A stretch of DNA of 64,000 nucleotides from Sialis fuliginosa (Eukaryota > Arthropoda > Insecta > Megaloptera > Sialidae). The notes beneath the pieces were generated by a model. It was given only the letters and a program-made list of their open reading frames with translations. It was not told the origin of the DNA and did not search any database. Position 1 is the stretch's first letter. The number at the start of each line of letters is the position of its first letter. The translations under genes were made by a program, and so were the position numbers. Location of the stretch: positions 12,968,701 to 13,032,700 of the forward strand of contig OY540816.1 of NCBI GenBank assembly GCA_961205875.1, in the 5' to 3' direction. Below are positions 1,565 to 63,751 of the stretch, one piece after another.

Positions 1565-1582
1565 TGATTTTTTTTATTTCAG

Positions 1583-1629
1583 GTAAGTTCCAATTTACGC
1601 TGAAATTGTTGCAGTTCAATATTCAATCC
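1583..1629 (+). other. Candidate recursive splice site with 47-nt cryptic exon
   Basis: A pyrimidine-rich tract, GATTTTTTTTATTTCAG, ends at 1582 and is followed directly by GTAAGT at 1583. This is a strong 3' splice site fused to a consensus 5' splice site. A second perfect GTAAGT begins at 1630 and would define a 47-nt cryptic exon. This joined acceptor-donor arrangement with a nearby downstream donor is the known layout of recursive splicing sites in very long insect and vertebrate introns. No host exon is visible in the window, so the function is inferred. It could also be a short alternative exon or chance. Confidence 0.5.
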
Positions 1630-1774
1630 GTAAGTTTATTAATAATAATTTTAAAATAAAACATATTCCAAGTATTTTGACATTAATAATAATTAAAATT
1701 ATGAATTACATACAGCAATATAATGAAATAATATCAATAATGAAAAATATCAAAATCTTCCTGTTGAAGGCTAA

Positions 1775-8610: not shown

Positions 8611-11176
8611 AGGTACTGGCACCAGCTATGGCCGCTATAAAAGCAAGGTTTACTGTTTTTGTTATTACCGAGCTTCCTTTTTGTAATTCTCATGAACTCA
8701 TGTTACTAATAAAACAAGTAACTCTTTATTTAATCAATTATATTACCAAAGTCCGCAAATATACTTTTTTTAATTATTTTGTTTTTTGTTTTTTCTCCAG
8801 TAATGGATAAAATAAAACCAGTAATGAGCGATGAACACTTACTAATGATTACAAAATGATAAGTACTACGGAGTCATTCCATGTCAAATCAACACAGGGT
8901 ATAAACCTCACCATCTCAGATTTTCATGAAATTTGGCACAATTGTACTATTCACTTAGACTTGGAAAAATATCAAATTTTATTGAGATATTTCTACTGGG
9001 TTTGAAATTACAGCTATGTAAAGTTTTCAAAAATTGGTCAAAAAACCGTGGTGGAAAATTTTTGAAATGCTCTGGAAGCTGATCTAATTGACTTAGAGAA
9101 CTGGGCGGGGTGTCATTTTACAGCATATTTGACACCAATTACAATGATATAAAACACAATATGGGCTAAGAAAAAAAATGTTTTCAAAATCAAAGTCAAA
9201 ATTTTGATTTTTAATTTCACAACAAGTACGGTTTCAAAAAATTTCAAATTAATACCAAACATAGTCATTATAGATGTGAATCACCTGGCAAAATATAAAT
9301 GTGGGATGACAATGGGTTCTATGTTAAAATAATTTAAGACTGAAACTCGAATTTAAAAATCGCTCTGTATTTAAACTGTGAAAAAGTCAACAATGCTAAA
9401 ATGTATACTTGCATGAACATGAACACTAATATGAAGTAACAATACATTACTAAATTCAAAATGAGCTATTAATTGCTACAGAAGCATGGCCCTCGCATTA
9501 TCATGGGCCCTCCAACTGGAATTGTTACGAAAAAATTTTTTTACGGTTTCAAAACTTTTCAAATTAATATTAAGAATAGTCATTATAGTTGTGAATCACC
9601 TCGGAAAATATAAATGTGGGATGATAAAGGGTTCAATGTTAAAATAATTGAAGACTGAAGATCGAATTTAAAAATCACTGTGTATACAGGAAATATTTAT
9701 GCTATTAAAAAAATGTTAGGCCTAAATTTGTAAATTTTACACATGACATAGTAGCTAGTTCAATGTAATAAAAAGCTGTATTGTTATATTTTAAGTACCA
9801 GTAATCCAAGTTTCAAAATTCCAATTTGTTAATGTCAAACTATTCACGCATACAATGACATGTAAGCTGCATGTGGTAACCTTATTGGATCGACTTTAGT
9901 TTGAATTAAAAATAAATAAATAAAACTATTAGCTTTCATCATTTTTGAAGTAAGTAAGCTTGTTGCAAATAAATCAACAATACTACAAAAAATCTTCAGT
10001 TATAATTCAAAATATATACAAAAGTAAATCCTGTGACCCCGACTGGGAGAATTAATGTTTTTCTTGAAAATGAATTATGAATTTATTAATTAAAATTTTG
10101 AATTGAAAGGCCTAAAAAATAAACTTTGTTATTATTTATTTTTTCCTATTTAATGTCCTTAAAAAGGTCCTTCAAAGAAACCTGCATGGTCGAAAAAAAA
10201 TTTCTTAAGGGGCTCGCAACAATTCCAGTTGGGGAGCCCATGGTAATGCGAGGGCCATGCTTCTGTGGCAAGTAATAGCCCATTTTGAATTTAGTAATGT
10301 ATTGTTACTTCATATTAGTGTTCATGTTCATGCAAGTATACATTTTAGCATTGTTGAATTTTTCACAGTCTAAATACAGAGCGATTTTTAAATTCGAGCT
10401 TCAGTCTTAAATTATTTTAACATAGAACCCATTGTCATCCCACATTTATATTTTACCAGATGATTCACAACTATAATAACTATGTTTGGTATTAATTTGA
10501 AAATTTTTGAAACCGTACTTGTCGTGAAATTAAAAATCAAAATTTTGACTTTGATTTTGAAAACATTTTTTTTCTTAACCCATATTGTGTTTTATATCAT
10601 TGGAATCGGTGTCAAATATGCTGTAAAATGACACCCCGCCCAATTCTCTAAGTTAATTAGATCAGCTTCCAGAGCATTTCAAAAAATTTCCATCACGGTT
10701 TTTTGACTAATTTTTGACAACTTTACATAGCTGTAATTTCAAAACGAGTAGACATATCTCAATAAAATTTGATATTTTTCCAAGTCTTAATGAATAGTGC
10801 AATTGTGCCAAATTTCATGAAAATCTGAGATGGTGAGGTAAATTTTTCATTAAAATTGTGTTGATTTGACATGGAATGACTCTACGACAGAAAAGATATA
10901 AAATAAAGAATCGTCAAATTTGAAACCATGTAAAACTTTTTCTATGATAATATAATAATTAATAAATAAATTATACTAATAATTAGTTTAAATGTCCATC
11001 ATTTTTACACCTATTCCGATTTTCATCAAATCACGCTGTAAGATAGTTGAATGTATATAGATTAATATTCAAAACTGGTAGTAATCAAATATCAACAAAT
11101 ATTTTTAATTCAGTACATTTAATTAAAAAATAGCCCTTACTGGAGTCATATCCAAAACTGGATTTAGAGTACTTTG
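8611..11176 (+). mobile_element. TA-flanked AGGTACTGG MITE, copy A, split by a nested element
   Basis: The left part, 8611-8870, begins AGGTACTGGCACCAGCTATGGCC after a TA. The right part, 10883 to about 11176, ends with a decayed CCAAAACTGG terminus. Together they match the family that is complete at 30717-31230 and 54717-55196. Between them lies the fold-back element 8871-10882. The intact family is about 480-515 bp, has imperfect inverted ends, TA duplications as in Tc1/mariner-type MITEs, and no coding capacity. Confidence 0.8.
8871..10882. mobile_element. 2-kb fold-back element with long inverted arms, TACG target duplication
   Basis: The ends are GAGTCATTCCATGTCAAATC and its inverse complement GATTTGACATGGAATGACTC. 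The arms continue inward for about 650 bp (8871-9530 and 10205-10882), including ATTTTCATGAAATTTGGCAC near the outside and GGCCCTCGCATTA near the inside. TACG lies at 8867-8870 and again at 10883-10886, and the host MITE reads continuously if one TACG and the insert are removed. A block resembling the inner left arm repeats at about 9530-9680. No transposase frame is present. The superfamily is unknown; 4-bp duplications with very long inverted ends suggest a fold-back or Sola-like element. Confidence 0.85.
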
Positions 11177-44830: not shown

Positions 44831-45920
44831 AATGAGTCAAATTAGTTTTTCAACATCCAAAAATACATAATAAAAACATAATAATTAAGAGTAAAAGAGC
44901 TTTTTTCTGAGTCTATGTTTTTAATAGAGGTTCATTTTATATGTACCAACCTAAGAATATATTCCTACTTTGTGAGATATAATCCTCAAGTGATCAAGAA
45001 AGTATCAGACTTTTAATTACGATATGCAGATCTGAACAAAAAAAATTCAGAAGTCTTACTATCTCTGTATAGATATATTCTATAGAGAAAGAACTCAAAC
45101 TTATAGTGAGTCATTAATTTCAAATCAAGGGTTTAAATTTTAAGAGCTGTGTCTAACTAAAACTAAATTTCTTAAGAACTATTAGTGATTTTATTTTATG
45201 TCAGGGGCGAATCTTCTCCAGAAATAGCCGGGCATGAATTTTCAAATAGTTCATACTTTATTAGTTAAAATTCTTTTCACTTTTTGACTTTCATAGAAAT
45301 ATATACATTTTTGCGTATTTGTATATTTAGTTGTTTTAATGATTCATTGAAATTAATATTACAAAATGTTAATACTAAATATATTAATTATAAAATAATT
45401 GGTTGATATTTTATTTTTTTACAAATACTAAAAAATAGATATTTATAAATAAATGGAACTAAAATTTAACCATAATTTCTTGGTTACACATTCTTCCAAT
45501 ATATTCTTCAGAATGTGTCCATTGTAAACTTGAATATAGAAAAAAAATATTTGCACTAAATTAGTTTTATTATTGTATATAATTTAAAAATAATTGAAGT
45601 TGAAAAAGAGTTTTAAAAACGTTCTTCCGTCCCTGTGTTTCACAGTACAAAAAATTCTCCCGTGAATAATCTATAATGAGTTCAACTTAATTGAACTAAT
45701 TATAATAATTACGTTAAAAACTAATCAGAGACGAAGAAGCTACAGGTAATTATGATGGTCTTGTTATATTTTATTACGACGTATTCTCTAAAGGTCGTCT
45801 ACCACCTGAAAAGTCATTATAATTTCTACTCTGAACACATTTGCTATAAAATCTCGCGCCTTGTATTTTTTTAATTATGATTATTATTGATGTTAAGGGT
45901 ATTTATATAACTAATTTATT
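44831..45920. other. AT-rich gene-free stretch
   Basis: No gene or repeat is recognised. A pyrimidine-rich run begins at about 45917, leading into the splice-site-like junction at 45936/45937. Confidence 0.4.
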
Positions 45921-45936
45921 CTTTTTTTTCTTTCAG

Positions 45937-45978
45937 GTACGTTCAATCTCTTGTCTTGTTAATAAGTCAGCTCGATGG
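45937..45978 (+). other. Candidate recursive splice site with 42-nt in-frame cryptic exon
   Basis: CTTTTTTTTCTTTCAG ends at 45936 and is followed at once by GTACGT, an acceptor joined to a donor. A second donor-like GTAAGG starts at 45979. The 42-nt segment between is a multiple of three and open in frame 1 (VRSISCLVNKSARW), so it could be a micro-exon or a recursive-splicing exon. The polypyrimidine tract is among the best in the window. The layout equals that at 1583-1629, about 44.4 kb upstream on the same strand. Confidence 0.5.
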
Positions 45979-46301
45979 GTAAGGTGTAATTATAATATTT
46001 TAAGCAAATATCTAAATTTTATGATAATTTTGCATCGTTTCCGGTACTAATTAACACTTCTTTTAAATAATCTAATCAAGTTGTTATTCTTAAATAATTG
46101 CTACAGCAAGATGTGTTAATTTTGATTGTATCTTTATATTTTTCAATAGAACATTTTCGGCTTACAATCATTTGTAATTTTAACTAAAAAATACAACATC
46201 GAATTAAATTTTATGCAACGTATTCTGTATAATTTGGTCTAAATGAAATATAGTATGCTCAATTAAGAAATATGACATGTGCTTTAATAGTACGTTTATA
46301 C
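45979..46301. other. AT-rich gene-free spacer
   Basis: Nothing is recognised between the splice-like site and the next MITE copy. Confidence 0.4.
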
Positions 46302-46787
46302 ATCAGTCTTGGATATGATCCTAGTAATGGTTATTTTTTAATTAAATGTACTGAATTAGAAATATTTGTTGATATTTTATTACTACCCTTTCTGAATATT
46401 AATCTATATACATTTAACTGTCTTACAGCGTGATTTGATGATAATCGGCCAATAGGTGTCAAAATGGTGGACATTTAAAGCAATTATTAGTATAATTTAT
46501 TCATTTTAATATAACAACTGTTTACATTGTTTCAAATTTAACGATTCTTTCTTTTATATATTTTGTGTCGTAGTACTTATCATTAGCAATTGTCCATTAC
46601 TGATTTTACTTTATCCATTACTGGGGAAAAAACTTAAACATATAGTTAAAAAAAACTTTATTTACGAACGTTGGTAATTAATTAAATTGATGAAATAAAG
46701 AGTTACTTGTTTTATTAGTAACATAAGTTCATGAAAATTACAAAATAGAAGCCCGTCAATCACAAAAACAGTAAAATTTCCTTATCC
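46302..46787 (-). mobile_element. AGGTACTGG MITE family, copy H, minus orientation, both tips lost
   Basis: It runs from CATCAGTCTTGGATATGATC through GTCTTACAGCGTGATTTGATG and AATAGGTGTCAAAATGGTGG to GCCCGTCAATCACAAAAACAG. The terminal AGGT/ACCT bases are degraded on both sides. Confidence 0.85.
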
Positions 46788-63428: not shown

Positions 63429-63751
63429 TTTTGTTTTACTTCGAGGTTTTAGGTCAATAAAATCGTTATATGTGTTATAACATTATTTATTAATATAAAC
63501 GTTTCGTCATATTTCAGACTTCTTCAGTATATAATAAAAACAATCTACCTTTAGACAACAATAATACTTTTACATATTTTTATACAACAATAGGACTAAA
63601 AATATGTAAAAGTATTATTGTTGTCTAAAGGTAGATTGTTTTAATTATATACTGAAGAAGTCTGAAATATGACGAAACGTTTATATTAATAAATTATGTT
63701 ATATACACATATAACGATTTTATTGACCTAACACCTCGAAGCAAAACAAAA
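63429..63751. mobile_element. Long near-perfect hairpin element, 323 bp
   Basis: ATTTTGTTTTACTTCGAGG at the left pairs with CCTCGAAGCAAAACAAAAT at the right. The arms continue through GGTCAATAAAATCGTTATAT, AATATAAACGTTTCGTCATA and ACAACAATAATACTTTTACA, with their inverse complements on the right. Arms of about 145 bp meet at a short loop near 63585. The arms are so similar that the element is probably recent. No coding capacity. Confidence 0.85.

Follow-up and report, generated by a model that had tools for sequence, protein, structure and literature searches.

Recursive splicing has been best studied in flies and mammals. In Drosophila, the intronic ratchet points and cryptic RS-exons of kuz, Bx, and others resemble the locus described here (PMC8605326 and PMC6110457) in having a pyrimidine-rich acceptor fused to a donor within very long introns, in often occurring several to an intron, and in carrying a second donor about 50 nt downstream. 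A high-confidence recursive site is given for 63% of fly introns longer than 40 kb (PMC6110457), and fly RS-exons are described as mostly out of frame (PMC8605326). In the latter paper, the weakened ratchet donors of Bx mutant flies all scored below the RS-exon donor, with complete inclusion of the exon. With respect to other insects, PMC2773006 gives the density of sense-strand fused sites in introns longer than 50 kb as 0.484 versus 0.122 per 100 kb in bee, and 0.807 versus 0.101 per 100 kb in beetle. Among the papers listed for recursive splicing with Apis mellifera, bumblebee, and insects, none was a study of recursive splicing in bees.

Here, the window—that is, the whole 64-kb stretch of Sialis DNA that was analyzed (C8:12968701-13032700)—holds a fused site at position 45937 (C8:13014637 on the + strand), which, judging from the sequence, is probably a ratchet point inside a + strand intron of great length, for which a SASH1-like gene is the likeliest host. 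Positions without a C8 prefix in Table 1 are those of the window.

Anatomy of the Fused Site

An acceptor, a GTACGT fused to it, and a GTAAGG 42 nt further on had been noticed in a sequence-only reading of the window, and all three proved exact to the base (Table 1). Acceptor and donor motifs are fused at AG/GT, as in a recursive site, and the second donor, expected approximately 50 nt downstream in a Drosophila-type RS-exon, was found at 42 nt. The second A of CTAAT, a word resembling the branch-point consensus, lies 23 nt before the first base past the 45936 acceptor. Frames 0 and 1 of the 42-nt segment are open, and frame 2 contains TAA.

Table 1. Positions of the splice-like features and of the nearest recognised coding exon.
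Feature	Position	Strand	Remarks
CTAAT, branch-point-like word	45911..45915	+	candidate; position typical
Pyrimidine tract and acceptor TCTTTTTTTTCTTTCAG	45920..45936	+	acceptor score rank 1 of 2563 AG on +
Acceptor CTTTTTTTTCTTTCAG	45921-45936	+	AG at 45935-45936
Ratchet donor GTACGT, fused to the acceptor	45937..45942	+	rank 3 of 3285 GT, preceding CAG counted
Candidate 42-nt RS-exon	45937..45978	+	VRSISCLVNKSARW in phase 0
RS-exon donor GTAAGG, preceded by TGG	45979..45984	+	rank 17 of 3285 GT
Ratchet-like site ..TTTTTTTTATTTCAG/GTAAGT, GT at 1583	1567..1588	+	second-best fused site on +
Candidate 47-nt RS-exon of 1583	1583..1629	+	phase-0 stop; length not a multiple of three
Donor GTAAGT, preceded by TCC	1630..1635	+	47 nt past 1583; 9-mer score weak, 5.2
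Ladder GTs (fused motif)	C8: 12690874, 12809454, 12863165, 12900346, 12930741, 12970283 (=1583), 13014637 (=45937)	+	
Coding exon, 228 nt	C8:13055580-13055807	+	nearest recognised; only frame 0 open

Under the splice-site matrix, which is approximate and not derived from the Sialis genome, the 45936 acceptor outscored all other AG dinucleotides on both strands. Scored only over the six intronic positions, GTACGT is a moderate donor, with 90 other + strand positions scoring at least as high. The fused AG/GT score at 45937 (26.6) was the highest on either strand of the window, the runners-up on the + strand reaching 23.1 (at 1583) and then 19.2, and the – strand maximum being 18.8. In Markov simulations modelled on the window's own statistics (400 sequences per order), sites scoring like 45937 were expected 0.005, 0.0075, and 0.0025 times per 64-kb strand at orders 1, 3, and 5, respectively, and none of the few that arose had a donor scoring at least 9 at 20–100 nt downstream. 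The 1583 site, at which the matrix ranks the acceptor 30th of 2563 and the donor first of 3285 on the + strand, is by itself weaker evidence, because 0.06–0.09 sites of its grade are expected per strand in the same simulation.

Motif Population and Downstream Donors Across the Genome

The 392-Mb genome (20 contigs) was searched with a strict motif of 12 pyrimidines, N, CAG, and GTANGT, with the reversed pattern as a control; these counts are lower bounds for repeats, and simple repeats are skipped. The motif matched 48 times (16 forward and 32 reverse) versus once for the reversed control. Altering one donor base to GTTNGT behind the same acceptor left 5 matches (12 for its own reversed control), and thus it is the donor in its fused position that accounts for the excess. 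Among the 48 donors were 28 GTAAGT, 10 GTATGT, 9 GTACGT, and 1 GTAGGT. All 10 pairs of neighbors no more than 300 kb apart lay on the same strand, three of them belonging to the 45937 locus, as against 1.7 expected and a maximum of 8 in 5000 random draws; the random placement disregards contig ends, and with two thirds of the sites on one strand about 56% of pairs would be expected to agree.

Some motif sites are not independent. The ratchet-like sites L036 (C4:26737432) and L037 (C4:27786488), about 1 Mb apart, have 198 nt around the motif in common at 84%, and may be duplicated ratchet points; another site, L033, lies partly within a dispersed repeat. When the pattern was relaxed, the genome yielded 56 matches, 8 of which (on C1, C4, C6, C9, and C12) are copies of the string TTTTCCTCTGCAGGTAAGT, which looks like a repeat carrying a fused splice motif, so that some of the looser matches are not ratchet points.

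Donors are enriched just downstream of such sites. At 34 sites, donor-like hexamers numbered 13 at +25 to +49 versus approximately 1.4 expected, the background elsewhere averaging 2.7 per 50 nt with a largest 50-nt bin of 7; a hexamer donor was present in +25 to +74 at 16 of the 34 sites and absent at 18. Nine-base donors scoring at least 8.5 occurred in +20 to +130 at 10 of 32 sites versus 0–2 in 12 other bins and none antisense, the contrast weakening at a laxer cut of 7 (12 sites, with one other bin at 9). Similarly, 10 of 34 sites showed U1 pairing of –7 or better within +25 to +95, versus 0–3 in seven shifted windows.

The frame of these segments does not carry the same weight. A candidate downstream donor was present at 32 of 37 sites, and its spacing was a multiple of three at 9 of the 32, approximately as expected by chance. 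Chance alone would make a length such as 42 divisible by three in one case out of three, so that the fit carries little weight, and frame preservation was accordingly rejected as evidence; the importance that the sequence-only reading had attached to it did not hold up, given this proportion and the generally out-of-frame fly RS-exons of PMC8605326. Its wider proposal—a recursive-type site whose 42 nt could be skipped, used as a micro-exon, or used in recursive splicing—fits the same-strand sites, the motif population, and the donor enrichment.

A Same-Strand Ladder and Its Candidate Host Gene

The link already drawn between 45937 and the same-strand site at 1583 agrees with the evidence, further same-strand sites being present around the window. 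Seven fused sites, picked by hand, form a ladder on the + strand of C8 with steps of 118.6, 53.7, 37.2, 30.4, 39.5, and 44.4 kb, followed by 40.9 kb to the coding exon. The site at 45937 is the ladder point nearest that exon, and the other six have strong ratchet donors. Within the 264 kb scored, a fused score of at least 22 was reached at 6 + strand sites and at no – strand site (maximum 21.2). Two + strand sites of at least 22 were excluded from the ladder, namely 13124301, within the span of a – strand usp gene, and 12943290, with a GTGTGC donor. The stretch C8:12691000-12868700 was read only around two pattern matches. The – strand carries, between two ladder sites, a pair of ORFs of p25-alpha (TPPP) type, L010:5337-5768 (C8:12954037) and L011:899-1240 (C8:12959599), which are apparently nested in the presumed giant intron.

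An in-frame TGA precedes the coding exon at C8:13055580-13055807 by 9 to 7 bases, and the exon lacks an in-frame ATG; it therefore requires an exon upstream of it that ends in phase 0. Downstream on the same strand, ORFs match the SAM domains of SASH1 and SASH3 and the SH3 domain of SASH1, the SH3 and SAM combination of a SASH-type host, and this SASH1-like gene would include the window. An upstream exon was not found in the 264 kb searched with the human SASH1 start as a guide, two weak matches (phase-0 donors behind a W-containing peptide) not being accepted; the phase, the gene, and the exon context of the ratchet donor are therefore assumed. Between 45937 and 13055580 lie further exon-like pairs, 13029108-13029152 and 13054590-13054731 among them, which could change the phase if they are real.

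No coding exon of a known family was accepted within the window, where two Pfam hits (0.006–0.007) were at chance level among 117 of the 851 ORFs of at least 33 aa, and no RNA families or tRNAs were found in its 64 kb. The flanks, scanned through the 101 most G+C-rich and two other ORFs among 983 of at least 40 aa in 13 pieces, gave only the two p25-alpha ORFs and weak single hits to Cor1 (0.0062) and IRK_N (0.0096). A – strand usp/RXR gene with zf-C4 and ligand domains (L021:242-736 and 2065-2595) adjoins the SASH1-like gene at its 3′ end. The ligand domain of this usp/RXR gene matches RXR-like USPs such as 2nxx at 273.5 bits, versus 157 for 1hg4 and 150 for 1r1k, which are fly and moth proteins, so that its source is probably neither a fly nor a moth.

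Proposed Donor Competition and the Possible Fates of the 42-nt Segment

In the steps proposed, the spliceosome would define the RS-exon, 42 nt in length, by its acceptor and its donor at 45979. Joining of an upstream exon to 45937 would then rebuild a donor, composed of the exon end and GTACGT. If the rebuilt donor were used, the 42 nt would leave with the next piece of intron—that is, the exon would be skipped—and if the 45979 donor were used, 14 codons would be included. We infer splicing at the sites, a single intron reaching across all of them, its assignment to the SASH1-like gene, and competition between the two donors.

With a CAG exon end assumed, U1 pairing at 45937 was –9.7 kcal/mol for the RS-exon donor versus –7.4 kcal/mol for the ratchet donor. 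A nine-base matrix reverses this order (11.9 for the ratchet donor after CAG versus 9.7 for the RS-exon donor), and because of this disagreement the predicted donor strength depends on the measure, as well as on the assumed exon end. The stronger ratchet donor of a cryptic, always skipped RS-exon was accordingly not seen by U1 pairing, and was seen by the matrix. At 7 of 37 sites the RS-exon donor equalled or exceeded the ratchet donor in U1 pairing, 45937 being the only one of the seven ladder sites among them. RS-exon donors at or below –8 kcal/mol accompany 7 of 14 GTAYGT sites versus 4 of 23 other sites, a small-sample difference.

Inclusion of the 42-nt exon in some mRNAs is plausible, because the ratchet donor is predicted to lose to the exon's own donor and because it is open in the expected phase; a length of 3n and an open phase 0 would in themselves only make inclusion in mature mRNA possible. 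With either fate allowed, 45937 is probably a ratchet point, as far as its sequence can tell. Should it be one, we lean slightly toward the exon being mostly skipped, and regard as nearly as probable its inclusion in a substantial fraction of the mRNAs of some tissue. A more specific proposal can be offered tentatively, as possible but doubtful: 45937 may be an expressed RS-exon of the SASH1-like giant intron, in which a weak ratchet donor permits a regulated 14-codon insertion, with the other six sites serving as silent stepping stones, and non-fly insects may in general have two classes of ratchet point, silent with GTAAGT and switchable with GTAYGT.

Alternative Explanations

The 42 nt could instead be an ordinary coding micro-exon, cassette or constitutive, which starts with GTACGT by coincidence and involves no recursive step. 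Among the 41 exon-like pairs on the + strand of the 264 kb (acceptor above 8, donor above 7, and at least one open frame), the 42-nt segment has the top score, 24.3 versus 19.5 for the recognised coding exon 13055580-13055807, and its open phase 0, its length of 3n, and an own donor predicted to be stronger than GTACGT are also as this explanation would have them. It is nonetheless unlikely, since the same acceptor is followed by GTACGT or GTATGT 19 times versus 5 times for GTTCGT or GTTTGT—a rough subtraction puts about three quarters of them in excess of ordinary exon starts—and since 45937 belongs to a same-strand series of ratchet-like sites. A string arisen by chance in non-coding DNA, with no role in splicing, is less probable still: pyrimidine tracts are common in sequence this AT-rich (28% G+C), and sites of the 1583 grade would turn up at the modest frequency given above, but those of the 45937 grade are expected only 0.0025–0.0075 times per strand, and neither the genome contrasts of 48 to 1 and 48 to 5 nor the strand clustering would follow from chance.

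Origin from a piece of transposable element bearing splice signals draws on the dispersed repeats that are common in the window, one of them starting at about 46286, and on the repeat overlapping motif site L033. Against this, a 28-base stretch around the 45937 junction has a single match genome-wide when up to 3 mismatches are tolerated, and the matches of 45800-46290 elsewhere in the window amount to two 23-nt pieces, one of which is the 1583 motif. With the junction single-copy and matches in the window nearly absent, a repeat origin was rejected as extremely improbable. The repeat family itself (46286-46783) begins approximately 300 nt past the RS-exon donor, and has copies at about 8.6, 20.1–20.5, 30.7–31.2, 39.3, and 54.7 kb in both orientations. 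Elsewhere in the window are a 626-nt inverted repeat (8905-9530 and 10214-10839; 95% complementary, with 683 nt between the arms), possibly a mobile element, and a hairpin at 63476-63703 with 107-nt arms, 98% complementary, and a 14-nt loop.

Comparison with Known Recursive Splicing Systems

We read the site at 45937 as, most likely, a ratchet point that has its own RS-exon, and possibly an expressed mini-exon. Enrichment of such motifs has already been reported for bee and beetle (PMC2773006). That report resembles the present analysis in finding, computationally, an excess of fused sites in large introns, and differs, in its section on these introns, in being a motif count without downstream donors or single sites. 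If real, the locus would extend the fly-type arrangement of a fused site and a short RS-exon to a further lineage of insects, in which the steps are much longer. Its two donors being so unusually evenly matched, it would then also put the donor-competition rule to the test in nature. The strength of those donors also sets it apart: at fly intronic ratchet points the stronger donor is generally that of the ratchet point, whereas here the prediction favors the donor of the RS-exon. The ladder steps of 30–119 kb likewise differ from the typical fly segments of 9–15 kb (PMC6110457). The 51-nt exons m1 and m2 of Drosophila Ubx (PMC8605326) are similar in being short and frame-preserving, with a donor at the start and a very long intron around them; they belong to another gene and measure 51 nt rather than 42 nt, and inclusion of the 42-nt exon is only predicted.
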